This document shows positions 30,612 to 63,731 of a stretch of DNA of 64,000 nucleotides, in pieces; position 1 is the first letter of the stretch; each line of letters begins with the position of its first letter. Source of the DNA: Deuterostichococcus epilithicus (taxonomy: Eukaryota; Chlorophyta; Trebouxiophyceae; Prasiolales; Stichococcaceae); contig JAVTLE010000014.1 in NCBI GenBank assembly GCA_033439295.1, positions 310,001 through 374,000 of the forward strand, read 5' to 3'. Under the pieces are notes generated by a model. The model worked only from the letters and a program-made list of their open reading frames with translations, did not search any database and had not been told where the DNA came from. The position numbers and the translations under genes were made by a program.

Positions 30612-33600
30612 TCACTCGGACAGCTCGATTTCCTCCGGATTCGCCACCGCCGCCGGCATTGCGGGTGCTGCTGCCGCCCTTGGTGGCGGCNGCGCCGACA
30701 ACAGCCTGCGCTNCCCGCCGGGCAGCAGCGGCTGCATCAGCGCCCCCTGCTGGGCGTTGAAGCTAACGCCGCCGCCCGGCGCCGACGCCGCTGCGGCCGA
30801 GCCGCTGCCGAACGCCGCTGCGCCGCCAGTTGCGGCGCTCGGCCCCGCGCTCGGCCGCTGCTGTTGCTGCGGCTGCTGCTGCCGCTCGTGCTCCCGCGCC
30901 GCCGCCTCGCTCGCGGCGGCACCGGGCCCCGGGTCTCCCTCCGGCACCTCATCCGCCGCGAGGCCGCCAACAGCGTCTTCACCATCGGAGACGACATCGT
31001 CGATGTCGATCTCCTCGGGGTTGGCGGCCGCTGCCTCCGTCTCGTCGCTCAGCTGAATCTCCTCCGGATTGGGTGCTGGCGCTGCGGAAGGAAAGAGGGG
31101 AGTGAGGTGCATGGCACCATGGTGCTCCAGTGCAAAGCGTCTCCTGCCCTGGCAACTCTGGCCACGTGAGTTTCAGCAGCCTCGCGCCCTCATCAAGCAG
31201 AGCACATGTGCAACAGGGTCGCCAGCAGGATCCTCAGGCGGCGGTTGGCCAGCTTTGCGCCGCTGCCAGGGCTGAAGCCCCAGCTTACCACGTCTGTAAA
31301 GGAGGATGCACTGGTTCAGAGCTCGAGGGCACACCAGCAGCAGTTGCGGAGGATCCACCGCCGCCGCCGCCAAGGGGCGCCAGCCCGGGCGCCGCAGGAT
31401 CCAAGTTGTACGGCAGCCCCAGCATCGCCAGGAATGCCACCGTCTGCGGGTTGCGCGGGCTGGACTGCGGCATGCGGCCCTGTAGTGGAAGCAGAGCACG
31501 ACGAGTTTCTGGATTCTGCGTCAGAACCCCTTTTCAGCAGCAGTGACGGCTGGATCCCACTGCTGTCTTCAAACACAGCAGGACAGCCGGCAACTTCAGG
31601 TTTTGAGCCAACCCTGCACACACCATGATGCCTCACCCGCTGCATGGCGGGGTTGCCAGGATCATAGCCCGGCGCTGTCGGCACGAAGTTGGCGGGAATG
31701 CGAGGACCGCCCGCCTCTTTCAGTGCTCCTCGCACGAACTCCAGGTCTGCGGCGGACGGCCCGTGCCGCGCCCCGCCCATGCCTGCGCGCCAGCACTGGC
31801 GATCCTTCACATGATATAATCCAATTTTCAATCGAAGAATGGGCTGCAAGTGCAGCCGGCCCACCGGATGCTTCAGATCTCCGCTGCCGACTGCGCGTGA
31901 CGTGCTCAAAGGCTGGTGGTTCGTAAGCTTGCCAGCAGGGTGCTGAGGCAGGGGACACTGCGCAGGAGTGCATAACCGGCCGCGGCGTCTTGCTGTGCCA
32001 GGCCGCACGCCTTGCGCGGACGTTTCCGAGGCAGCTGATGGTAGAAAGCTTTTTCCTTAATCCGCACCCGGCAGCGGCTTGGCGCGGCGGCCGAGGGACA
32101 TGAGGTGATGCGTGCCGCGCAGCACAGCCAGCCACTCCTCGTCATAGTGCAGCTCCTTCGGCCCCCTGGCCTCCGGAAAGTCCACCACCTGTGCACACAT
32201 GATGCAGAACAAACCGTGGTGGCGTATGTGCGAATGAAGCGCCGTGTGCCGCCGTGTGCCAGGCGAGATGGTCCAGCTCCTCCGGGCCAGGAGGCCCGTG
32301 GCTTCCAAAGAGAGACCGCATGGGTGGTTGCCACCGCGAGAGGGTTGCTCAACGACGAGGACCCTCGTCACATCATGTGCAGCATGCCCGATTGCTCCAG
32401 GCGGGAAGCGGACCAGCAGAGGGTTGCACGATGGTTGTGCACGATGGTGCGGTACAGGCGGCCTGGCTGACATACGTTGGGGGAGAGCTGCAAAATCAGG
32501 CTCGCCTGGAGGAAGCCGCGCCGCGGCAGGCACTTGTCCAGCGCCAGAAACTTTGTTGCCCGCTGACCCACCAGCTGCGACGGCTGCTGCTGCTGCTGCT
32601 GCTGCTGGTCCTGATGCGGGGCTGCCGACGAGCCGCCGCCACCGCCGCCAGTGGGCCCAGCTGCATGCCGGAACAGCGCAGCGTACTTGACATGGAGGTG
32701 CGCCGAGAACCAGTACTCCGGCTGCAGCTCCCGCAGCAGCATCTCCGCCGGCGGGCTGCCCAGGCTGTTGTCGTTGATCTGCGGCGTGATGAGGCATTGC
32801 AGGTCAGAGGCAGCAGAACGGCATGCAGCACCCCTACTGGCGGGCTGCCCAGGCTGTAGAAGCTGGTCATTGATCACTAAATTGCATCGTGACAGCCATT
32901 CCCAGCCTTGAAGGCAGCACCAAGCGCAGGAGGACTTTCCAAGTACTCTTGCAGCTGCCGCCTAAGCTTGAGATTCTGTGCCCACCTCGTTCTTCAGGAA
33001 GCTCTTGGCACGCAGCAGGCCATGCAGATCGCCGTGGCGCGCGATGCCGCGCGGCCAGTCGTGACTCAGCCCAATGTCCAGCGGGCGCTTGAGCTGCGAT
33101 CAGGTGGCAGGAAGGGGGCATCAGGCAGCAGGCGGCAGGTACCACTACGCTGAACAAAGGCCGAATCGGGTCTTGACGCAACAAGAGCCTCCAGGCGCCG
33201 GGTTGGCATGCCGTCGTCGCCGCGCGGGCTGCAGCGCATGCGCCGCGGCTGTCGCGCTAGGCAACACAGCAACAAACCAAGCCGAGCAGAGTCTGTGAGC
33301 CAGCCGCGCGCCTGAGCGCTAGCGATGTCCACCATGCTCCACGACGCCCAAGCTCCATGAACATCTGTTGAGATTTCTGCAAGACTACAGCGTGGCTCCT
33401 CACCTGCGCCAGGCGATACACATCCAGCTCCCGCACATGGTATGCCGACCGCATGCTGCCATCGGTGTAGGGCGGCATCTCGTGGTGGCCCTGCGGCATT
33501 GCACAGCAACAAAGTGTTTGGTCGGAGTGTCTGCTTCGCCATATGACTGAGTCTTGCATGCGAGAAGTGTGAAAGGGTGCTGCTTGCCAGCATGCTGCCA

Positions 33601-35982: not shown

Positions 35983-38900
35983 ATGGTCAAAAAGGAGCGG
36001 GAAGTGAAGGGCAAGCAGTACAGGGCAAAATCCGCGGGCAGCAAGAACGACGGGCCGGCGCCCAAGCCTAAGCCCAAATCGCGGCGCGCGCGCCGCATCG
36101 TTGAGGCCCGGGAACCCAAGCTGGTAAAGCTGCTGGAAACCCTCTGCTGGCTGTCAGCTGCTCATTCCCACATGCTTCTGGTCAGCAACTGCAGACGCGA
36201 ACTGCTTGCTGGCTTCACACGCAAGCACCTGTCCCCATCGGTGAGCTGCATGTACATGATGCTGTCGCCGCTTCTGCAGTGTTGGCCCCGTCTGGCTGGC
36301 ATGCGACTGCAGCACCGACTGCCAGCTTGGAAAAAGTCCTCTCCGCACCATGTCTGCGACACACTGCTGTCGGTCGCATTCTCAGAGACTCGATCGATCG
36401 ACTTCTATCCCATCACTGCAGGTAAGGGACCCCAAATATGTGCAAACAGTGGTCGCAGTCGCCCACTCGCCTCGTGCTCCTCTTGCAGGTAGAGGACCCC
36501 AAAAAGGCGCTGCTGCTGTATGGCGGACGCACCAGCCAGACGGTGAAGGATGTGCTGGCCGACTTCGGCAAGCTCAAAGGGGTGAGTGTTTGAGTTTCTG
36601 AGCGCGGCTGTGACAGTCGTGTCAACGAGCTTGTGCACGGTGTTGAACCTGTACTTCCAGCGGTCAGTGTGCCTGACCTCGGCGCCTGAGCTGGCCCACA
36701 ACCCCTTGGTGCCGGATGCTGTTGTTGCATTTGGCAATCCGCACCATTAGGCTGACGGCGCTGAGGCAGCAGCAAGTGCAGGCGAAGATCAATTCGTCAG
36801 AAATTTCTATCTATATCTATCTATCCTGACTTGAGACCACACACTGCCGTGCCCTGTTGCCTGTCGCCAGCTCCATGCAATGTCCACGGTGTACGCCGGC
36901 TTCCTCTACTGGTCCTGACCTGCACGCCTGAATATGATAATGGCTCGTCAGCAGATGCAGATGCAGATGCAGACACAGATGCATGGTGTTGACGCTCGTG
37001 CACTCTGACGCTGTGGGGCGGAAAAGGTGGAAGCATTGTTTCTGTCTGCCTGGCACGGTGCCGCATGATGTCAGTCGCTGTGACGCCCACAGAAGAGTTT
37101 CCGCATCAGGTTGGCGTAACAGCAGCCGCAGCGCATGCGTTCGAGGGTCGGATCCCGGATGACACCTTCACGCACACCCTCAGCACAGCATGTGCTTTGA
37201 GATCTACTTGCGTGTCCTTCCGCAGCTGCAGGCGGTGAAGCTGAAGCGGAGGAACGGGGAGGTGCAGCCATTTGAGGCAGGCGGTTGACGTCTCGAACAT
37301 CATTCATCCCTTCGTGTGCAACGACCGTGTGCCGACCGCCTGCTGGTGCCCTGCGCAGCTGGAGGCGGTCAAGCTGACGCGGAAGAACGGGGAGGTGAAA
37401 CCATTCGAGGCGGGCGGCGAGGGACAGCTGGAACATCTGGCGCGGCGCGCCGATGCCGCGCTGTTCGCAATGGGCTCCAGCACCAAGAAGCGGCCCAACA
37501 ACCTGACGATGGGTGCGGCCAAAGCGCCGCCGTCCAGGCTTGAGCACTGACACTTGAAACAGATGCACATTACTGACGCGTCAACATTCGAGCACCGAAC
37601 ATGTGCAGTGAGGCCAGGCCCGCAGCCACACCTTGGATGAGCACCTGCAAGTCCGCCACCTGTGCTCGCGACCAGATGGGCATCTCGGAAAGCGGACAGC
37701 ATGCGCTGTGGGCACGTGCTCACCATGTCGTTGCTCCCACCCTGGGTGATGCTGCTCAGCGGCCAGGAGCTGCGCGTGGGCGACCACAGGTACATGACGA
37801 AATCAGCAATACTAATGCCACCCTTGGTACACATATACCCTCCCCGTTCCGTGCAGGGCAGCCCTTCATAGGGCGGCTACCTGACATGCTGGAGTCGGGC
37901 GTGGACGGATGCAGGCATGGGGGCACAATTTGGTAGGTGCAACACACTCAACGTATCGGGCGTGTCCTGCAGGGCGCTTTTTCGACGGGCGACTTTTCGA
38001 TCTGCTGGAGCTGGGTGTGGACAGGTACACAAGCATCCGGGAGTTTGGGCGCGCCGCTGAGGTCCAGATCGGCAACAAGGTGAGACCTTCTGCAGGAGGC
38101 CCGAATCCTGTTTTCGTGTGGCAGTCATGGCTTGAGTTCTTACAGGGACAGGGCTGCGGCAGTATGTAGCAACCAATGAAAAATCCTGAAGAGAACCACT
38201 CGTGGAACAGGATCTGCCAGGATTTCTGTGACACCTGTCGCAATGTATGCTTTCGTCGCAAACCAGGCTCATAGCTGCAGGGCGACGTACCACCTGCGGC
38301 CGCATGGCTGACTGAGCTGACGATTTCCAGAACAAGGACAGCCACCTTGGAGCAGCATGTGTCGCTGAAATAAGCATGTCGTTGTGTGATGCCACCACGC
38401 AGCCGGCCATTGTCTTTGCGGGGGAGCTGTTCGAGAAGGAAGAGGCCCTGGGGCAGGCCAGGGGGCTGCTGCTCGATTTCTTCCGTGGGCGGCAGATCAA
38501 CAATCTCGCCTTGAAGGTGGGTCACACGGCTGGCCGACGTGCCACTGAGCGGCGGAATGGCGTCAGCCAAGGTTCTGTCGAAGAGATGATACTATGTTGC
38601 TGCAGATTCCTGGCATCAGCTGCATTCCAGTGCACGCTGCAAAGCAGTGGAGGCTGCCGCTGTGGAGTGCTATGGCAGCCTGGCAGTGGCAGGCAGAGTT
38701 GTTCATAGGCACAGTTGGTATCCGATGCTGAGCGGCAGGCGCTGATCCTGCCGCCTGCCGCAACGCTCGAGCTGGAGCATGGCTGATCATCAGCATCAGC
38801 TGCTGCTCGTCGTGTAGCCACTGGGCCTGCCGTTGAAATCACCTCGTTTCTGACCGCATAGAAGGATTGCGTCAGGGTGGCTCCATTGAGCCTCGCATGC

Positions 38901-40611
38901 AAAAGCTGCATGCACTGACCTGTACCCGGCATCCAGGCCACTCGTGGAGCCTGGTTACCGGGCAGGACAACTTAGTGCATGCAGCTTACTGGCGACAAGC
39001 GAAGCACCGCAGATCAATCGCTGCTCCTGCCCCGTTCGTTCATCCTGAATCGCAAGGTTCCCCACGCCTCGACTCGACACACTACATGCACTTCACCGAG
39101 CACATGCCCAGCTGCTGCAGGGTCTGAACCTGCTGGGCGTCAGAATGGCGCATTTGTGAGACACTATACTTAGGTGATACGTATTGTAGCTGGCAATCGA
39201 AATCGCTTGCGTCCTTGTTTCATGCTCCAGGGGCTGGACCGGGTGATGTGCATCAGCGCGGCGGACGCGTCAACACTATTGCTGCGCCAGTTCCGTATCC
39301 GCCTGAAGAAGACTGGTACCAAGGTGATTGACTGGGTCAATTTTGTATCCGAATCATAACCACTGGTACCAAGGTGGTCGACTGGGTCAGCATCCAGCTC
39401 ACAGGCGCTTTGCAGTCAGGACCAAGGTACTGCAGCCGGATTTAGGAGAGGCACTGGGACGAGCTTGCCGTTTACTTTTTTCAGGCTCACTGCAAATGAG
39501 CTCCCGAACAGTTCTATCCGTATCAAATGCTGCCGCGCATGGAGCTCGTCGAGATCAGGTCTTTGTAGGATAGAGCCGGCCTCGAGCGCTCTTCTGACCA
39601 TCGTCCGAAGGCCTCTGTGGTGTCGCAGGTGCCCCGTGTGGAGCTCACGGAGATGGGGCCGCGGCTGGACTTGAGCGTGCGGCGGCGGCGGGAGGCGCCG
39701 TCTGACCTGGCCAAGGAGGCGCTGCGGCAGCCCAAGCTCACGGGCAAGAAGGTGAGCTGGGCACCCTGCAGGGCAATCTGCCGCAGCACCGATAGTTGGG
39801 CGTCTTACACTGCCTTGAAAGCGCACGATATTCTTGATGTCGTGATGGTCGCACGGCCACTACAGGCAGGCATGGCAGCAGCTCTTGTACATCGTACAAA
39901 TCTCAGTCAGTGTGGCACTTGTGCAAAGCTCCTGAGGGGCAAGGAAGTCACAGGGAGCAGGTTGCTGGTTGACAAGAATCAGTGTGCGAGTCCTCATAAA
40001 AGCATGGCGGCTGCCCGACGCCTTGCATATGTGGCAACTTCATCTGCCCTGCCCTCGCCTGCAGGAAAAGAATGTGGGCTCTGACGAGCTGGCGGGCAAG
40101 GTGGGCCGCATATACATGCCGGCTCAGGACGTGGGCTCCATGGCGCTCCACAAGATGAAGGTAAGAGCCGGTGCAGACGATGCATTGCAAAGGCCGTCTC
40201 AGTAACACGAAATTCATCCGTGGCTTGCTGCCATGTGCAGCCGCCCTCTCGCTCACACAGCAAGTGCCAGCACCCCCCACCCCGCCATCACCAACACACC
40301 ACGCACACCATGTGCGAGGTGTGGGGTGCGGCAATGGCAGTGCTTGATGCCGAAAGGGTCTGCTTCCTACATCACCGTCATGCCGGCCAGCAGGAATGGC
40401 ATCACGCAGTGGCTCGTCGATCTCACCTGTAGACATGTGCGATTGGGTGGGTGTTCCGCTGCAGGGCCTCAAGCGGGAGCGGCGGGACGCGGCCGGCGAC
40501 GCTAAGGCGGCCAAGGTGGCCAAGAAGGGCGGGCGGTCCCAGCTGGCGGCGGACGCCGCGGAGGAGGTCGAGGGCGGTGCAGCAGAGGAGGTCGACATGA
40601 CCGACATCTGA
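35983..40611 (+). CDS. RPF2: Ribosome production factor 2 (Brix-domain protein)
   Basis: RPF2 acts with RRS1 to bring 5S RNP into pre-60S particles in the nucleolus. Nine exons (35983-36123, 36489-36581, 37359-37512, 37973-38079, 38403-38516, 39231-39323, 39629-39751, 40065-40160, 40465-40611) join in phase to 355 residues. After a lysine-rich start (KSRRARRIVEAREPKL) the Brix domain runs through LLLYGGRTSQTVKDVL, RPNNLTMGRFFDGRLFDLLE, PAIVFAGELFEKEE, DRVMCISAADASTLLLRQF and VPRVELTEMGPRLDLSVRR. The tail is charged and ends EEVDMTDI. All introns are GT-AG. Introns 1, 2, 3 and 6 carry degenerate copies of the adjacent exon edge. Confidence 0.96.
36806..36827. repeat. TCTA/TATC microsatellite in RPF2 intron 2
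   Basis: Short imperfect tetranucleotide repeat (tctatctatatctatctatc). A second short repeat of cagatg units lies nearby at about 36953-36982. Confidence 0.7.
37221..37284 (+). repeat. Echo of RPF2 exon 3 start in intron 2
   Basis: This 64-base segment matches 37354-37417 (acceptor plus first 59 bases of exon 3) at 56 of 64 positions without gaps. It includes the acceptor-like cgcag and reads LQAVKLKRRNGEVQPFEAGG against LEAVKLTRKNGEVKPFEAGG in the real exon, then hits a TGA with no donor. It is therefore a truncated duplicate exon rather than a usable alternative. Confidence 0.88.
37853..37919 (+). repeat. Echo of RPF2 exon 4 start in intron 3
   Basis: Resembles 37969-38036 (gcaggg acceptor through gctggag...gtggac). 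More diverged than the exon 3 echo and with small gaps. Confidence 0.7.
39311..39389 (+). repeat. Duplicated exon 6 / donor junction in RPF2
   Basis: 39311-39339 (end of exon 6 plus donor) and 39361-39389 match at 26 of 29 positions. The second copy preserves a donor-like ccaag|gtggtc, giving a possible downstream 5' splice site. Confidence 0.85.
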
Positions 40612-42438
40612 GGCTGAGCTTGTAGCGTGCTGGTGGCACTACAGAGGCTGCTGTAGACTGCACCCAGGCTGAGCGGCGAGAGTGTGCCGCCGGCGAAGGG
40701 CGGCTTCGAGCGCCGCGCAGGCAGGGCTGCTGTGATTTCAGTCGCGGCGCGGCCGATGCGCTGTGCTGCCCTGAAGCAGCAAGCCAGCGGCTGCGAGCTC
40801 GATGACGACCGCAGTTGCAGGGCGTTGCAGTGGCGTGGAAGCTTTGAATACTGGAACATGGACAGCGCCTGCATCAATCTCAACGGATATCTACGACAAG
40901 GACATCATCACCCATGATGACAGCAGAGCACCCAAATTGCAGCTCTGCTACTTCAGCGTCGACACTGGACCTGACGATGTGGGGCAGCAGTGAAGAGGTC
41001 CCTGTCATCAATTTTCAATGTGAACCCGTACCCGCGGAGTGTTCGTCGGTGAGATGTGCAGCATGCTTGTCACGTCATGAGCATGTACATAGTCGTATGC
41101 ATGATCTGCGCCCTGCGCAGCAGCTGCAGTGCACACGACCACTGGCGGCTAGCAGATGAAAAACTCGTTACTTCATGCGTGCGGTTGCAAACACCAACTG
41201 TCGTGAAGCGGGCTTGCTCTTTCTCCCTTGGATTGCCACTGGGAAGCGCAAGGCATGTGTATCGATCTTGCTCAACCTCTGCTGAGTTTAACCACTGGCT
41301 GCTACGGTCCGTTTGACTTCGGCTGCAGCCTCCGAAAGGGAATGTTATCCAGGACTAGTACGGCGAGGAAGCCAAGCAGCATCACAGCCCAGTCCAAACC
41401 AACATCGCTCATCCACCTATGGCTGCAAAGCAAAGAAATCCTAACGAATTCGTAAAGAAGACTGGAGAGTTTGACAGGTGGGCCACAACTCACCACGACC
41501 GCTGGCATCAGTCGTAGCTGCTACTGCCCAAATATTTGTGGCAGCAGCCTCCGCTGCAGGGAAGGCCATCCCGACAGTATCAGTACGCCAATGTAGCAGA
41601 CCAGCAACACAGACCACTCCAAGGCGTTTTCGCGCAAACTACCCTGCAGGAAGCAGGATCCGAATCAGCTGACACGCTCGTACCGAAGACTGGACAATTA
41701 GACAGGAGGGCCGAAGTCCATCAGCAAAGCGCACAACCGCCCTAACTTATTGCGCTGTCTCCATTTCATGCACGCACCACCCATTTGATCCTTGTAGGCG
41801 GATCATCCTCACGTCCAGGGCGCCTCGCGCAGAGAGCAGTGCTGGGTCGGTGGTTGCAAGCACGGAAAACCTTCCTGATCAACAAACAAAGGCATGAGCA
41901 CAGGACCTGTCAGCTCGTGCACACAAGGTGATGCACCACCAGCGCCATCTGGTGTACCTCGAGAAGTTGCTGAACGAAATTCCAGCCTGACCAGTTGGCA
42001 TTCGATGTCTCGATGATCGGTTGGATCGTGGGCTGTGTTGTGTGGCTGCCGTCATAGGGACGACCCGAGTGCCTGCCTGACATGACTGCTGCATGGTCAA
42101 GCAGTGTCCAGGGTAGATTTCTGCTCTATTGATCTTGATATACGAATTGGAGGGGAGAAGACTGTGAGGGGGCTCGGCGCTGTAGCGAATTGAGGGTGGG
42201 GTTCCGGAAAAAGGGTGGGATTTCGGAGGGGGCCTGGTAAGAGTCAAACCCCCGTTGATCAGAACCAGCTTTATTGGCCACAAAAGCCGGCGGCATCGGA
42301 CATGGCTGCACGCTCGAGCTACTCAAACAGCAGCTCTGCCATACGCCGGCACTCGAGCTGGTCCTGAATAATCCTGAGCACGCTGGGCCTCTGATTGCAG
42401 CTGCTCCAGCTGCAGTCGCTCCAACCCGCAGCAATGTG
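40612..42438. other. Convergent intergenic region, no gene seen
   Basis: About 1.8 kb between the RPF2 and propeller-gene stops. Less GC-rich around 41300-41760. Only short frames without family resemblance. Confidence 0.4.
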
Positions 42439-46595: not shown

Positions 46596-53061
<6,466 letters not shown>

Positions 53062-54070: not shown

Positions 54071-55843
54071 TCAGGGCAGCAGCATAATAGGGCACGGCAC
54101 AAACTCCTGCATACCGTCGGAACACGCCACGCGTCAGCGCCGCAGTGCCTGTGTATGTCACAGCCTCATGCACAGCGATGCTTGAACCCCAGCAGACCGC
54201 GCCAGCAACTGTACCGCAGCCCGCACTGCTGGGGCAGAGGAGGCACATGCCTCCAAAGCAGCGCATGTCAGTGTGCCACAGTCTGGCGCAGCTTCGGTGG
54301 CAGCAGCACACCAGGCTGCCATGGGGACTGGGGCAACATGTCATTCCTGACTGCAGTACACGCGTTCCGGCATCCAAACTGCTACGCACGGCAAGCTCTG
54401 GCATCGACGGCGTTGGCATGCACTGCCTGGGTGCAGGGCGTCCGCAGGTCGGCCTTGCCGGGTGCGCTCTAGTGCTGCAGGGTTCAGGGTCCGTGAAGTT
54501 CGTTCGGGGGCACGCACGGCGAGCAGGTTGGCGTCGACGGCTTTGGCATGCACCGCATCGGCGGAGAGGACCAAGAGGTCGGCACCGCGGGCGTCGGCCA
54601 CCTCGCCGCAGGCGGCGCTGGCGTTGGGCGGCGCCACCTGGTCCAGCACCTCAAAGTCGCGGCAGCCGCCGCCGTGCAGTTGCCTGGAGGTGCAGCCACA
54701 GCAAGGGAGTTTTGGGAGGACAACACCAGGTTGCAGCGGGGTGTCCCGTGTTGGCACCTGGCGGTCGCGGCAACCGGTGCCGCGTGCAATGCAAGCCAGC
54801 TCGATCCAGATCCAGCACCACGGAGAGCCGCCGCCGTGCTGCAGAGTGTGATGACTGACGCCGCAGGGCGTGAGCCAGACGACTCCATGCACAAAGCTGC
54901 GGAGCAGAGCGACATGCCTGCACGCCAGGCGGCTGCGCGGCCATGTTTGTGAGGAGAGGCTGTCGATGAGGTGCCTGCCAGGCAGCAGGGACTACAACTA
55001 CACGAACCAAAGCGGAACGGCACAGTGGTGCGCAAAGGGCGCCACACCGAAATTGCCTCCCTTGTGTCCCGCCGCACAGCCTCCGCTGCCGAGAATGGCT
55101 CTTCAGTTTCGGTCGGAATGAGGACAGCTTTCGCCGTGTGCCAAGCCCTACTCCGAGCTGCTGAGCGTGCAGCGAGCCTTCTGCATCAAGTTTGCTGTCC
55201 CAGGTCTGGTCCGAGGCCAGAGCTTAGGTTTCGATCGCTCTGAAGGGTTCGTGATCCGAACACTTTGGACATTGATGAGCGAGCAATGCGTGACGCAAGC
55301 TCACGGCCTTCTGAATGATGTCCTCACCTGCAGGCATGGTCGCCAACCTGGGACTCTGTAGAACGGGGCATGAAGCAAACCGCAAAAGGCAGCGGGCTCC
55401 AAGCCGCCGGCAAAGCCAGGTGTGTGGCCCCACTTTGCTCGTACGTTCCAGGTATGCGTGTGCTCATCTACGAGGCAAAACATTCGAAGGGCAGCCCGGA
55501 GACAGACACTCACTCTGTGAGGACCTTCATGCGGATGTTGGAGTCGCTGCCGTCCTGCTGCTTCTCGTCCACCAGCAGCACCGTCATGCGCCCAGCCGAC
55601 GCGCCCACCAGGCTCGCCGCCATCTGCGTCGCCTGCAGACTAAGCAACAAGCCTCGGAACCAGAGTAAAACGTGTCCATCATGCACCTAATAGTCCGCGC
55701 TAAGCGCAATTTTCTGTGCATGCTGACAAGCACTGCACGATGCTAGGCACCTGCTTGCTGCCGTCCGACATGTAGGGGTTGTTGTCCAGAATGGCCAGCA
55801 TCACATGCTTCCAGGCCGTTGCTGGCACGCGGCCGGCTTCTAC
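54071..55843 (-). CDS. UspA-like (adenine nucleotide alpha-hydrolase fold) protein, 5' end missing
   Basis: Four minus-strand exons (55843-55751, 55632-55514, 54683-54518, 54106-54071) join in phase into 137 residues. They read TAWKHVMLAILDNNPYMSDG, then SAGRMTVLLVDEKQQDGSDS, then CGEVADARGADLLVLSADAV and VDANLLAEFVPCPIMLLP. This is the order seen in the plant UspA-like proteins annotated as adenine nucleotide alpha-hydrolase-like, ending in the usual hydrophobic strand with proline. The first listed exon begins in phase 0 after an acceptor and has no ATG, so at least one upstream exon is missing from the model. The final exon is only 36 bases. Confidence 0.8.
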
Positions 55844-57142: not shown

Positions 57143-60100
57143 TCAGGCGCTGGCGGCCTGCGCCGCCGACACGCAGGAGGCGGCGCCGCAGTGGCACTGG
57201 CCCTTCAGCGTCTGCTGCACGTACTGGATGCCGTAGTCGAAGCTGCGCCCAGGCGTGCCAATCGTCATCAGGATTGATGACGGGGCAGACTTCTGGAGGG
57301 GATGCGCTGTCCTCTGCAGGGGCGCCGCAATGGTGGCAAGAGTGGCGGGGGCTGCACTGGCAGATCTGCGCTGAGTGCTCCGGCCAGAAACACCGAGGCA
57401 AGGAGCGGCCCTCGCTGGGATCGAACCTCTGCAATGCAGAGGCCCGGATGAACAGTCACAGTCATTCGTCAAGGAGATCCCGCACGTGAGCGGCGTGAAG
57501 GGTGGGATGTTAGAGTTGGCGAAGAACGCCATGTAGGGCAGGTCCTCGTCGTGGTGGCGGCTCAGCACCGGCTGCACGAACAAGTTGGGGTCGCAGCAGT
57601 GGTTGACGAAGCGGGCGACGCCGCCACAGGGACCCGCATCCACGATCCACTTCGGCAGCGGCTGGTTCCGGGGGTCGCTGCACGCGCCAGACAGCATGTA
57701 AAGCGCCCACTGCATGGCATGGTCGCGAAGCTCGAACGGCACACGAGAATTGCCGCCATGCAACTCATTGCGCAGAACACAAAGCCAGTGATGAGGCATC
57801 GACGTTTTCAGGCGCGCTTGGCAGCACAGAAAGTCCCTTGCGCCGCTGCCACACCATCCATCGCGCAAATCGCGCAGCCAACAGTGAGGCATCGGTGTCC
57901 TCAAGCGCGCTAGGGTCACACCGGAAAACCGCACACCAAGGCAGCTGCGCCCGCCGGATCGGAGGGGTCGCCACCTGTCCAGCGCGTCGTCGGGCAGCCG
58001 CCGGCCGGCGGCATCGAAGTCGGTGCGGGGGCACAGGTCTAGTAGGTAGGAGGTGGCCGCCGTGGGCATCGCCTCCGCGTCCGAGCAGACCATTACCTGA
58101 ACGCGGCACCACCAGCTTCATTTGGTCGTACTGCTACCATTCCGCAAACATGCACAGGGATGTTCCCGAGGTACGAGGTGGCCGGTGTGGGCATCGCCTC
58201 TGCCTCCGAACAGGCTACGACCTTCGCAATGCCTCAGCGCCTTGATTGAGCAAATGATCACTGTCGAACACGAGCATGCAAACACCAGGTGCATTCCTGC
58301 AACGATGTGACACACAGCCCTTCCCTGGGCCTGCATGGGCGCATTCGAGCAGAACGGTCCAGCATGGCCCTCGACAAGCCGCCGATGCTGTGAGGGTTTG
58401 CCATCCGTCCTCTGGGGTCACCACTGTTCTCTGGTGCGCTTTGCACCCTGAGCGCCGCTCGGACCTCACCGTGCCGTAGTAGATGGCCACGAATGCGCCC
58501 GAGGGAATAGTGTCCCAGGAGGTGAGGCCCCAGCCGCAGTGCCGTGTGTGCTCCAGCTGCAGCCGGAAGCGCAACCCCTGCGGCCGAGCGCCACACACGT
58601 TGAGCCCAGCCGGCTTGCCTGTCCTTGCACCTGCCATGAGTTCCGGGAGCCGCACGGAGCAGCTGTGTGCAGGAACCAGCAGGCGGGCGATCGGTTGACG
58701 GTCGGGTGCCTACAGCGGGCACCTGCTGCGAGAGGCGCTGGGGGCAGCCGCCGCCATCCGGGCAGGCTGTGTTCCAGGGGCCGCACTCGTACACGATGCG
58801 CTGGCAGTCCACCAGCGTCGGCGGCTTGTTGCCTGCGGGGCAGGGGCAGGAAAGGCGCCAGCTGAGGTGCTTCGCGCGTGCAGGAACAAACCCATCTGTT
58901 GGGTTGTTGGATCCCCGTCGCGCCCGCGTCGGCTTTGCACGGGAGGGCTGCGCAGGAGCGCTGCTGTGCGGGAGGGCGGTCGCCCCACGAGCGGGTGATC
59001 GCAGTGTTAATTTGGGCACCAGCGGGCGGCCTGCGCCATTGTCAAGGTGTCAGGGGAACAGCGGGACATGCGCAAGGAGGGAGCCGGACGCGGGCGCACC
59101 CTTGTTGGGCATGTAGGGCAGTTTGCCGCGGTTGAGCACCTTGAGCCAGGCGTGTGGGTCCTTGCCGCGGTACTGCGCGGGCACCACAGGCGCCGGCGGC
59201 CTGCGAGCCATCAGAACGCCTGTCAGCTGCCTCTTTCGGCCAGGGTGTGCCATGGCAGCTGGCTCTGCCACAAATCGTGCACAGCCTGCCCCACTTGACC
59301 ATCACGGCAGACGCTCGAGTGCGTGGATGTCGCCGCAAAGGCTGCCCTGCCACAGCGCGGTGCCCTGCTTGCGGGACGCGCACCAGCTGACGCCGGGAGG
59401 CAGCTCCATGTCCGTGATGTACCGCGCTGTTGGCCGCCACTGTTGCCTGCGGGTGATGGGAGAGCAGATATCGGTTTGGAAGCCGGCATGCATCAACACA
59501 CGACATCAAGTTGCGCGCTTAATGGCGGCAGCCGCTCAGGAGCAGCAACATGGCACCCTTTGCACGCAGCATCACACAATCCGGGCATCACGGTGGCAGC
59601 TCCGGCATCACGGACGAGCTTTGACGCGTCACAATCGAGGCACGAGCCAGCACGATGCGCAGCGGCAGCACTCACGGGCGGGGGTGTGCGGCAACGCCGC
59701 GGCACTGCGCCTGCGACGGCATGCGCGCCAGGTCGGAGCACGGCGGCGGCTGGTGGTCCACCTCGTTGCACGCTGGCACCTGCGATGAACCCATAGAGTA
59801 TTCAGTACTGTGGAATACAGAGTCTACAGTAAGATCAGCGTGTGGGATGTGATGTGCGACGTGCACAGAGCCCAGCCGGCAGGGATGCTGCGGAGGAGGT
59901 GTACAGAAAGATTGGTGCTGCGTTCGTGCCAGCAGGGTGCGTGCAGGCACCACGAGGGTGCTCTTCGGCACATGCAAGGCACCACCGGGGGTTTCTCAAG
60001 CCGGCCAAAGGAATGCAAGCATCCCTTGCGCATGCTCGCGCCACCCCCGGTGATGCCTGAGCAAACATGTGCGGCGTTCCTGCTGACACAAAATCGGCAG

Positions 60101-63100
60101 CTGAGGCGTGTTTGGTTTGTGAGGTGTGGAGGCGCACCGGGATCCTCTCCAGGCCGCCAGAGATGTCGGTGTCGATAATGCCGGGGCGGCTGAGTGCGCT
60201 GAGGTTGCGCGGCGCGCTGCCGCCGCCGAACTGCACCGCCCGGGTCAGCAGCGGCCCCTGCATCGCAGATCAGGAGGCTGTCGCTGCAGAGGACAGACCA
60301 CCGTTGATGATGGTGCCTCGTTCCGCTGGACAGCACTTGGGACCGACACCAAAAAGGCAGCCCAGGATGGAGTCGCAAGCTTGCGACACATCATGCATAA
60401 CAGCAGCTCACTGGCAGGCACTCGAAGGGAGAGGGCAAGAGACACGACTGGCTCACACAAGAGGAACGCCAAGCTGCAACTTCTGTCACACACAAGAGGA
60501 ACGCCAAGATGCAACTTTTCCTACCTGGCCAGGCCGCCGTCGTAGGAGGTACTTGAGGACGCTGAAGCCTTCCTTGCCCTTTTCTTGCGTGTACTTGACC
60601 TGGCGGCAAACAATGTTGCAGGCTGACGCCACTGGTCTTACTTGAAGCCCGCTGAATTCATTGCAGCTGCCCAGGACGCTTGCAAGCCAGCAGCCGCAAG
60701 GATCGGGCAGAAACACACTGGCAGCGCCTGACGCCAGCCGGTGTTCCAGACTCCCAGGTTCGCCTGGAAAGCAGGTGGGGCAGCGGTGCCAGTGGTCTAC
60801 TATGAGTGAGTAGCGCTCGCCATCAGCTATCGCATTGGACCCTGGGCGTCATTGCTGGCAGCAGCCCCCTAGCACCTTGCGACCTTGCCGCGATTGACAG
60901 CGGCACTTCCCCCCAAAGTCTGTCGTGTGCCAGGGCACCTGAGCTCGACCACTAGGTTTGTTTCCCCACAAAACCGCAACATGACTGATACTAGTGTGCG
61001 ATGCAGGGCGCCGCAGCCGCACCACGTCGTAGAGGCCATCGTACACGAACACGTGGCCGTACATGGTGTCCTTGTCCGCGTTGTTGCGGGTCACGCGCAC
61101 CGGGATGCCCAGCCGCATGTTGCCTACCTGCACCAGTTTTTATTTTTATTACCTGTTACATTATCGCCAGGAATGGTTTTCATTTTCTTAGTGAGGGGAC
61201 AGTGTCTATATCATCAACATTACTATCAGTATCATAATCCATTGAAGAATAGGGGAAGAAATGCTGGAGGTGCTGCTGACAAGAGGACGTGGAGCAGGAC
61301 AAGCATCATCGGGACAACCCAGGCGAGCGAGGGTCGCCGCCAGCAGCGCTTCGGCCGTGCTCGGTGTCGGGGTGGGGTGCACTGCTTCAATATGGATTGC
61401 GCGGTGGGTGTCACGAGCACTGTGGCTGAACCTGGTGGCTGGAGGCTTGGGGGCCTTGTGCGCTAGCCTCCAGGCACACGTTCCACACGGTGCTCGTGCG
61501 ACATGCAACCCATGTGACGCACACAGCCCATCTCCAGCCAGACGGGCATGAAGCCATGATCAGCCAGCGGCGCAGGGCTGCACAGGCTGCTGGGGCATGC
61601 ACTGCGGGCAGCAGCTGCGGTGCTGACTGGCATGGCCGGTGACTTGCGAATGCCCTGTACGCCCTCACGCCACAGGAGCAAACCGAAGCAGAAGGGGGAG
61701 GGCTGCAGGGTTCAGGGTTCAGGGTTTGAAGGGGTGTGCTACGCACCAATGCCAGGTTGCCGAACTTGAGGATCTGGTCCGCGACCTGGTTCTTCTTGCC
61801 CAGCAGGTCGTTGGCGCCCTGGCCTGCGGGTGCAGGTTGGGAATTTGTTTGAACAGCCAGCAAGCAGGCGCTGCATGAGACTGTAACCCTCCTCAGCCAC
61901 CCTATACCCAATCTCGGGCGTGCCATGGCGCCAGTCGCTGGGCAAGGCTGTGTAGCCAGTGTTCAGCCGGCAGACGGCAGGTGTGTGGGGCCCTTTGTCG
62001 AGCTGCGGCGCAGCCGCTCGAGTGGGCCGCTTGTCGGCGCGGGCGGCTGGCCCTGAGTGCTCAATCGTGCTGTGAGGGACATGCATCCACAGTGCTGTCT
62101 CACAACATGTCTGCTGGAGCCGAGAAGGATGATCAACGTCCCACGGCTCGTCGCCGCGGTTGTGGTTGTCGCAGCACCCCGCCACCATGACGCTTGCGGC
62201 TGTCAGACGCCACATGATTGTGTGATATGAAACTTGTACCTCAAAAAGGCGCACCGGTGTACCACAGCTCGTTGCCGCGGTCGTGGTTGTCGGCGTAGCA
62301 GCCGGACACCATGACAGAAGTCGCGAAGGACACGTCGCGCGCCAGGCGGAACAGCTCCTTGCTGGCGCCGCTGACAAAGTCGATGCCCGCCAGCGGCGGG
62401 AAGTGCAGATTGCAGCACGCAATCTCCGCGCGCGTGTAGAACCTGCGGCGGAGAGCAGTCGGCTTCGAGACACGTCTGCGGCCGGGCTCGGGCTTCGACT
62501 GCGAGGCACTGCACAGCAGAAACAAGCGGCACCCAGTGCTGTCCGCTCCCAGACCGCTACCAGGCCCGCCGCAGCGCCTCGCATCCCAGGGAGAAACAAC
62601 GGCAACATCCCCTGAGGAACGGAGAACCCTCACTTGCCCGCCACGGCGACGCCGGGGAAGTGGCCGACCACCTTGCCGACCGTCAGCGCCAGGCCCGCCT
62701 CCTTCATCATGGTCTGGGCCACGCGGTCCGGCCGCTGGCTCATGGCCTTGCCGTCGGAGTGCTTTTTGTCCTTGCAGCGCGCCGCCTCGCTCTCCTGCGC
62801 CTGCGGAGGCACGAGAGACAAGCGGATGTGACGCACAGCACCACGCAGCAACACAGCAGCATCGCAGCACGGCTTGTCGTCGGGGTGCTTCTCGTCCCTG
62901 CAGCGCGCCGCCCCGCTCTCCTGCGCCTGCAGCGGCACAGACACAAGCAACTGCGCCGCACGGCACCGCAACATGGCCTGTCGTCGCGGTGCCCCTTGTC
63001 CCTGCAGCGGCGACCAGCCCTCACGCGCCTGCGCCGACCAGAGGAGGCGACGCGGCCGGAATTCCGACAGCAGGAATGCAGCGTTCCAAGGACTTGTCAT

Positions 63101-63731
63101 CACAGAGCCTTGGGATATTGTCAGAGGTGTGAACTTCCTGTTGTCGGAACCGAGCGCTTATCGTCCTTGCAGCGCCCCGCCTTTGCTCTGCTGCGCCCGC
63201 CGTGGCACAGACGCCAGGCATGTTGACATCGTGACATGGCCTGCCGCATGTGTCACACTTGTGCTACACAGTGCCCCGAAGTTCCCTGCTGTCTGGCTGT
63301 GGCTCCGGGCAGCTGGCCTGTAGTGCGCCCTCTCTGCAGCCCGCACGTTGAACTGCCCTCTCCAGAATGCGGATGCCGCCGGCAGCACCAGCACGATGGA
63401 TGCATGATGAGTCTGCAGGGTTGGCACAAGGTCTTCGATGTGGGCTTCCTGGGAGGACGGCGCACCTGGCGGTACACTGTTCTTCGTCGTTGCGCCGGCG
63501 CTCATGCACCGCGCCCACTTTGGAGGGCGGCAGCACGACAATAATGGTTTTCAGGGTTTAGGAGGAAGGTTTCAGGTTTAGGAGTCTGATTGAACACACC
63601 AGCCGGTACTTGTTGTAGTAGTTGCGCTGGCACTCGTGCAGCGCATCCACCTTGGTGGGCGCCAGGTCCTGCTGCAGGTTGACCGGCAGGCCGCAGGCGC
63701 GCCACGGCTCGGCGCCGGGCGTATACACTGT
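57143..63731 (-). CDS. SUVH-type histone H3K9 methyltransferase (SRA, pre-SET, SET, post-SET), 5' partial
   Basis: Fifteen minus-strand exons join in phase to 612 residues: 63731-63600, 62800-62634, 62442-62255, 61823-61747, 61127-61026, 60599-60525, 60257-60138, 59779-59676, 59446-59306, 59200-59100, 58832-58723, 58577-58470, 58096-57975, 57677-57486, 57242-57143. SRA domain: GHFPGVAVAGKFYTRAEI, HFPPLAGIDF, QGANDLLGKKNQVADQ and YGHVFVYDGLYD. Pre-SET: IIDTDISGGLERIP, YECGPWNTACP. SET: CGWGLTSWDTIPSG, FVNHCCDPNLFVQPV and the FDYG tyrosine. Post-SET: CHCGAASC. SRA-SET proteins bind methylated CpG/CHH DNA and methylate H3K9, linking DNA methylation to silencing. The first listed exon has no ATG and begins after an acceptor; further 5' exons may lie beyond 64000. 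The 62801-63599 intron holds tandem copies of exon 2's start. Confidence 0.92.
57771..57914. repeat. Intronic tandem duplication in the SUVH gene
   Basis: 57771-57821 and 57872-57914 share cgcag, (gt)gaggcatcg and caggcgcgct-like blocks with a roughly 100-base period, within the intron 57678-57974. Confidence 0.6.
58045..58215. repeat. Echo of the start of SUVH exon 58096-57975
   Basis: 58045-58090 lies in the exon; 58170-58215 lies in the intron just upstream on the minus strand. They match at about 39 of 46 bases. The copy still reads in frame as SEAEAMPTPATSYLG, against SDAEAMPTAATSYLL in the exon. Confidence 0.82.
60454..60520. repeat. Tandem pair with 35-bp period after SUVH exon 60599-60525
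   Basis: 60454-60486 and 60489-60520 share cacacaagaggaacgccaag and a following tgcaactt, with one or two differences. They lie in the intron directly next to the donor of the preceding exon. Confidence 0.8.
61706..61733. repeat. TTTAGGG-like tract (gttcaggg units) in SUVH intron
   Basis: Three imperfect heptamer units (cagggtt cagggtt cagggttt). Similar fragments lie in the introns at 63550-63583, 2173-2192 and 51546-51561. Confidence 0.6.
62752..63213. repeat. Four tandem degenerate copies of a SUVH exon start
   Basis: The start of exon 62800-62634 (minus strand: acceptor then AQESEAARCKDKKHSDGKA) recurs upstream at about 62878-62930, 62980-63033 and 63154-63213. Copies 2 and 3 keep an AG acceptor, 126 and 102 bases apart, both multiples of three. 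The minus-strand frame is open from copy 3 to the exon (copy 2 reads AQESGAARCRDEKHPDDKP). Copy 4 is more diverged. Confidence 0.85.

Follow-up and report, generated by a model that had tools for sequence, protein, structure and literature searches.

Copies of exon edges in the adjacent introns of RPF2 and other genes of Deuterostichococcus epilithicus suggest intron growth by short tandem duplication

The RPF2 locus and the sampled sequence

The introns of RPF2, a gene of the green alga Deuterostichococcus epilithicus, contain decayed copies of the edges of neighboring exons. The gene lies in the window analyzed here, a stretch of 64,000 nucleotides (GenBank assembly GCA_033439295.1, contig JAVTLE010000014.1, positions 310,001 to 374,000 of the forward strand), where it occupies positions 35983-40611 of the positive strand and consists of nine exons and eight introns, as placed by Pfam and PDB matches and the gene model. 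Its product contains the Pfam Brix domain (E = 4e-35). The top PDB matches are RPF2 or ribosome production factor 2 homolog (E = 7e-64), and the alignment to residues 30-312 reaches all nine exons. Judged by these matches, the gene is RPF2. Exons 1 to 5 are located at 35983-36123, 36489-36581, 37359-37512, 37973-38079, and 38403-38516, and exons 6 to 9 at 39231-39323, 39629-39751, 40065-40160, and 40465-40611, all on the positive strand, with the last end taken from the gene model. The introns are 304-777 bp long. All eight protein matches found genome-wide (E up to 10) fall inside this gene; thus, RPF2 is present in a single copy. Intron 2, the longest of the gene, carries short simple repeats, recognized by eye, at 36808-36826 (tcta) and 36952-36984 (cagatg).

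The genome comprises 46.8 Mb in 21 contigs. Our main tests cover 264 kb, composed of the window, 160 kb from 16 other places (together the first 224 kb), and a further 40 kb added later. Exons and introns were predicted with a model self-trained on the sampled sequence, and these unannotated predictions include 9 of the 9 RPF2 exons plus two extra ones, with median exon and intron lengths of 111 and 254, respectively. About 10% of the introns predicted by this model begin with GC rather than GT. The search for repeat pairs and the lag scan were independent of gene models.

Exon edges are copied into RPF2 introns

The eight RPF2 introns have 16 exon edges, each of which was aligned locally with its own intron and with 375 other introns of the same genome; the resulting p values are uncorrected for 16 tests. 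Six exon-edge copies were found in five of the eight introns, and four of them outscored all 375 null introns. A sequence-only reading of the window had reported copies in introns 1, 2, 3, and 6. All of these are present, and the copies of the exon 6 head in intron 5 and of the exon 7 head in intron 6 are new.

All six copies lie on the positive strand. The acceptor and head of exon 3 (37354-37417) recur 133 bases upstream in intron 2, at 37221-37284 (0/375 null introns as good), and the identity previously given for this 64-base copy, 56/64, was confirmed. Intron 3 contains at 37852-37913 an ungapped 62-base copy of the acceptor and head of exon 4 (source 37968-38029, 116 apart; 0/375), and intron 5 contains at 39115-39167 a copy of those of exon 6 (source 39225-39279, 110 apart; 0/375). 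Intron 6 holds two copies, one of the exon 6 tail and donor at 39345-39382 (source 39295-39332, 50 apart; 0/375) and one of the exon 7 head at 39531-39588 (source 39630-39687, 99 apart), the latter being the weakest of the six (p = 0.016). The copy of the exon 2 acceptor and head at 36417-36443 in intron 1 (source 36484-36510, 67 apart) was equaled by one of the 375 null introns (p = 0.003). The other 10 edges gave p values of at least 0.23, and introns 4, 7, and 8 had no copy at either edge.

The intron 1 copy reads AG/GTAAG. At 36415-36424 this forms CAG/GTAAG, a back-to-back acceptor and donor that a 67-base tail intron would follow, an arrangement that we take to resemble recursive splice sites.

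The two strongest RPF2 copies were also visible by BLAST. A DNA search of the whole genome, which skips very common words, matched exon 3 only to itself and to its intronic copy. This copy is therefore not a dispersed repeat, and a dispersed repeat or introner origin is ruled out for RPF2 exon 3.

Exon-edge copies occur genome-wide

Of 673 exon edges in the first 224 kb, 46 had a copy in the adjacent intron, and the reverse-complement control gave 11 of 673. The equivalent numbers for held-out sequence, where the search zone spanned 190 bases of intron, were 9 of 205 (8 distinct, as L002 and L004 overlap) and 2 of 205, and the copies were 83, 100, 102, 104, 104, 132, 138, and 155 bases from their sources. 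Exon heads matched the zone of their own intron in 21 of 298 cases as opposed to 4 of 1,481 for other introns; the far zone of that intron gave 2 of 104, and the reverse complement gave 4 of 298. For exon tails, the corresponding counts were 11 of 304, 5 of 1,510, 0 of 101, and 0 of 304. An earlier edge test against shuffled introns gave the same outcome. Matches in shuffled or nonadjacent introns, which the sequence-only reading had named as grounds for refutation, are thus rare.

The search for repeat pairs revealed 37 same-strand pairs within 300 bp, 1 at 300-600 bp, and 7 farther apart, with 4 inverted pairs overall, whereas the Markov control yielded 2 pairs. This count omitted the last 4 kb of the window, which is included in the set of 52 local pairs less than 1,000 apart. 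Forty of the 52 join an exonic copy to a mainly nonexonic one, 6 lie outside predicted exons, and in the remaining 6 both copies are exonic, some of these being protein repeats. In loci L029 to L032, BLAST yielded four more pairs, separated by 65, 589, 607, and 846, none of which combined an exon-edge position with a distance in the usual range; the edge test found two exon-edge copies there.

The copies are clustered (permutation test by 10-kb bin, p = 0.0002; by predicted gene, p = 0.001). Among three other Brix-domain loci, 4/12 edges in L001, 2/5 in L002, and 0/13 in L003 had copies, and in two light-harvesting (LHC) loci, L033 and L034, the count was 0/49. The density of copies may differ between genes. 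Thus, the pattern first seen in RPF2 is real and clusters by gene, but it is genome-wide and not peculiar to RPF2. The genome encodes light-harvesting proteins, with 39 exon-level PF00504 matches, and is thus that of a photosynthetic eukaryote. A dense array of direct and inverted repeats is found between light-harvesting genes at positions 4641-6045 of L033.

Copy spacing is narrow and matches the added intron length

The distance between a copy and its source fell into a narrow range: 34 of the 52 local pairs were 82-139 bp apart, although some pairs share one array and are not all independent. Nine more were 161-300 apart, several of them second copies in arrays. The lag scan displayed a peak at 80-140 and a smaller class below 40, as opposed to a flat Markov control, and the spacing peak remained after correction for the amount of intron available at each distance. 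We know of no process that predicts a unit length of ~120 bp, and none emerged from the literature searched. Just 3' of RPF2, noncoding direct repeats at 41321-41712 are 219-228 apart, about twice the usual distance.

Introns that carry such a copy, hereafter a relic, had a median length of 368 (n = 45), compared with 250.5 for introns without one (n = 384), a difference of 117.5 (95% confidence interval [CI], 82-183). Once the copy distance was subtracted, the median of the relic introns was 263.5, similar to that of relic-free introns (p = 0.59). When the relic alone was subtracted, they were still longer, at 328.5 (p = 1e-4). Within relic-bearing genes, the difference was 104 (CI, 67-170), and a zone-proportional null, in which hits were scaled to the searchable intron, gave a median of 264. 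The extra length fits, and supports, duplication of a whole unit. Intron growth by tandem duplication is supported because the added length is about one copy-to-source distance. Of the two processes suggested earlier, intron gain or growth, growth therefore stands. Gain is not supported: no RPF2 copy lies at the donor as the AGGT model of intron gain requires, and the introns, at 304-777 bp, are much longer than the repeat distances.

Relics decay with little sign of coding constraint

Mismatches between exon and relic were counted by codon position in 41 pairs up to 300 apart and amounted to 71/543, 79/540, and 108/531 at the first, second, and third positions, respectively (0.13, 0.15, and 0.20). 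In the same set, 33 of 36 gaps were not multiples of three, a count that spans whole alignments, intron included. Codons with a single change comprised 59 silent and 89 nonsilent cases, compared with a random expectation of 36 and 112. Such a ratio is consistent with a relic free to change, combined with silent changes in the exon. The exon part of donor-type relics had 12 gaps, spread over 7 of 12 relics, and 10 of these gaps were not multiples of three.

Along the exon part of the relic, mismatch was flat at ~0.15, and in the splice consensus it was 0.091, although alignments ending there are biased toward matches. Of 22 acceptor-type copies, 12 had the AG exactly where the mapping placed it, and a few more had it if a shift was allowed. 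The flat mismatch and the loss of so many AGs argue against strong selection on the relic splice site, and we read the relics as largely unconstrained. Whole duplicated or mutually exclusive exons were rejected as an origin, given that the copies are partial, that mismatch rises as above over the three codon positions, and that the donor-type gaps break the frame.

Only 1 of 34 pairs was at least 95% identical, over 22 bases. (Analyses of 34 pairs refer to pairs up to 160 apart, without L021, a glycine-rich protein repeat, and without pairs lacking a predicted exon.) Simulation with uniform ages produced about 2-4 such pairs. The range of decay had been taken to mean that the process is ongoing, and these numbers neither demonstrate nor exclude it.

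Further relics in the window

Outside RPF2, relics of exon heads were found in the window on the negative strand at 32825-32857, in a predicted gene (source 32736-32768, 89 apart), and at 58169-58213 (source 58044-58088, 125 apart). Relics of exon tails with their donors lie at 48894-48950 on the positive strand (source 48803-48861, 91 apart) and at 54384-54426 on the negative strand (source 54512-54556, 128 apart). Exon tails are also copied at 51853-51884 on the positive strand (source 51745-51776, 108 apart) and, on the negative strand, at 62138-62191 (source 62259-62315, 121 apart) and 63463-63533 (source 63597-63665, 134 apart). An array on the negative strand at 62873-63208 consists of two or three further copies of a unit whose exon edge is near 62741-62812; here the intron part matches too.

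A tandem duplication model and the missing intron half

The copies lie in direct orientation in the adjacent intron, splice site included. A short tandem duplication, mostly of a unit of ~80-140 bp, that straddled an exon-intron junction would yield two copies of the junction. Splicing would then persist at the copy that preserves the message, namely, the acceptor lying downstream in the case of exon heads and the donor lying upstream in the case of exon tails. The remaining exon edge would become intronic, the intron would lengthen by one unit, and the stranded edge would decay. Tandem duplication of a ~120-bp unit across a splice junction, with an exon edge left to decay inside the intron, is the explanation that we favor, at a probability of roughly 65%. 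It builds on direct observations of the copies and where they lie next to their sources, of their narrow spacing and the added intron length, and of decay with little sign of coding constraint; from these we infer a single tandem duplication per copy and the splice sites in use. In some events, the whole unit was duplicated, as at position 9780 of L013 (68 apart, aligned over 67), at position 8827 of L022 (three copies), and in the window at 62747-63208 (three or four copies).

Several observations weigh against this explanation, most of them concerning the intron half of the supposed unit. Under plain tandem duplication, the intron half is expected to match as well, at about twice the divergence of the relic. 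Most copies match only the exon edge and the splice consensus. Among pairs up to 300 apart, the intron half matched in 14 of 42 rows at p < 0.05, and anchored extension entered the intron in 3 of 31 pairs, with the 3 abutting full-unit pairs left out. In an edge-identity profile of 20 acceptor-type and 11 donor-type pairs mapping within 12 bases of the edge, identity was ~0.8 on the exon side of acceptors and reached background level within ~12 intron bases; at donors it fell from 0.5-0.7 to background 6-12 bases beyond the junction. No more than 8 intron bases were aligned in 76% of the 34 pairs, whereas neutral simulation gave 24% when ages were uniform. Assuming an old burst (ages 0.3-0.5) raised this share to 73-84%, but at an identity of ~76.5%, as opposed to the observed 83.8%. 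Neutral decay of full units was rejected on these grounds, as uniform ages miss the short exon-limited matches and a single old age misses the identity. The best fit by eye required relics to change 0.15-0.25 times as fast as the intron. Recent paralogues were sought as a gauge of the intron rate, and the LHC genes fetched were too diverged. Three kinds of counts also run counter to the model. The difference in intron length varied with the cut, from 76-86 for introns of at least 200-250 to 120-174 at stricter scores (up to 174 at a score of at least 32). Only 6 of the 52 local pairs were free of predicted exon, few for an exon-blind process. Finally, there was a mild hint of constraint in the relics, with no exon-part gaps in 22 acceptor-type relics (BLAST found, 224-kb sample) and one in-frame stop where 5.4 were expected if all changes were random.

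Template-switch patches, exon-to-relic conversion, and use of the relic site are candidate explanations for the intron-half gap. A bolder and distinctly tentative version of the tandem duplication model would have a near-fixed duplication process of ~120 bp, past or present, whose products persist only at splice junctions, where conversion or use in splicing actively maintains the resemblance of the stranded splice site and edge to the working copy while the rest dissolves.

Alternative explanations

Templated patch insertion differs from tandem duplication in that break repair or fork restart would copy 30-75 bases of a nearby exon edge, together with filler, into the intron, and the flank would never have been duplicated. 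This would account for homology that ends on both sides in most pairs and for the rapid drop of intron-side identity to background near both acceptors and donors. Relic flanks and spacers matched only weakly elsewhere in the 264 kb (spacers and outer flanks of the other events, 33.7 bits at most), and one flank from L026 matched three places. However, patch insertion does not account for the position near the splice consensus at which most pairs lose homology, for the predominance of exon edges as sources, for the near absence of inverted copies, or for array spacings that are almost equal (for example, 90/90 and 123/124). Moreover, the added length equals the whole copy-to-source distance and not the relic. 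We consider this explanation doubtful.

Two other ways to generate an exon-limited match were rejected. If the copies came from spliced mRNA, the relic flank should match the end of the previous exon, and no more than 3 of the 22 acceptor-type relics showed such a match (p < 0.05), hardly above chance. If the duplicated unit were purely exonic, the match should run further into the exon, and this was seen (p < 0.05) in 3 of 31 pairs, RPF2 intron 2 included.

Relics might alternatively be retained for a function, with duplicated splice sites serving alternative or unproductive splicing and the surrounding intron free to diverge. The relic core is indeed better preserved than its flanks, and two relic acceptors (RPF2 intron 2 and one in L022) had scores at the 94th percentile among real acceptors. 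The lower mismatch of the splice consensus than of the exon part points the same way, within the limit set by alignment ends, as does the lack of gaps in the acceptor-type relics above, although held-out acceptor-type relics do carry gaps. On the other hand, the codon-position pattern and the single-change codons suit a free relic, and the observed retention of AG is, by our estimate, about what neutral decay would leave. Frame-preserving alternative splice sites were rejected because, by eye, copy distances were not enriched for multiples of three beyond chance. Retention for function is, on balance, unlikely.

Still less probable is a tandem duplication after which local gene conversion or slippage, running from exon to relic, maintained only the part that selection holds constant in the working copy. 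Conversion would explain why the preserved core is the exon edge plus the splice consensus, why mismatch is flat over the exon part, and why codon constraint is slight. We found no direct sign of it, and conversion between repeats of 30-70 bp located only ~120 bp apart is, to our knowledge, not known to be efficient.

Chance similarity or low complexity, thought unlikely from the start, can be dismissed for the set as a whole by the shuffled, nonadjacent, and reverse-complement controls and by the 0/375 null introns for four of the six RPF2 copies, although single weak copies, such as those of intron 1 and exon 7, may be due to chance.

Significance and comparison with known systems

Intron growth and the length of the duplicated segment are commonly inferred from single recent cases. 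If tandem duplication is the correct explanation, about 7% of the tested exon edges carry a footprint at a set distance, and the size spectrum, tolerance, and decay of such events become measurable in bulk. It also offers a quantitative test, namely, that carrier introns be longer by the copy-source distance, as observed. Should the size-locked version be true, this genome would contain an intron-growth engine that writes exon edges into introns. A genome-wide, size-restricted series of duplications lengthening existing introns was not found in the open-license literature searched, which lacks most subscription papers.

The comparisons below refer to the sections of the cited papers that we consulted. 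The tandem genomic duplication model of intron gain (Rogers 1989), with ATP2A1/ATP2A2 as an example (Hellsten 2011), is described in PMC4974935 and PMC3443670, and 188 gains by tandem duplication in several species appear in Table 1 of the latter. Tandem duplication is widely accepted as a route to new introns. As in that model, the duplicate splice sites here would come from local duplication. In the AGGT model of Rogers, a single exonic unit, flanked by two copies of AGGT, becomes the new intron, and no RPF2 copy is so arranged: only the intron 1 copy (AG/GTAAG) contains the motif, the copies do not start at the donor, and introns of 304-777 bp stand against distances of 50-133.

The closest case that we found is the potato RdRp gene, in which tandem duplication across an intron-exon boundary created a new intron (Ma, Lan and Niu 2016, PMC4974935). 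In both, the segment crosses the boundary, comprising the intron tail and exon head with splice signals included, and the upstream exon copy becomes partly intronic. Unlike that account of one recent event and a new intron, the present events are many and mostly old, lengthen introns, are narrowly spaced, and have a mostly unrecognizable intron part.

Small tandem duplications are also products of the repair of breaks with protruding ends (Pol alpha-primase/CST, PMC8355091, where paired nicks in plants are cited). The copies described here are likewise direct, short-range, and nondispersed, whereas, relative to what is reported in the consulted part of that paper, the 80- to 140-bp spacing and the restriction to exon edges belong to this genome. 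Introners, as portrayed in the portion of PMC9860276 considered, would similarly alter intron content genome-wide, but they are dispersed related copies, whereas the RPF2 exon 3 copy is akin only to its own exon.

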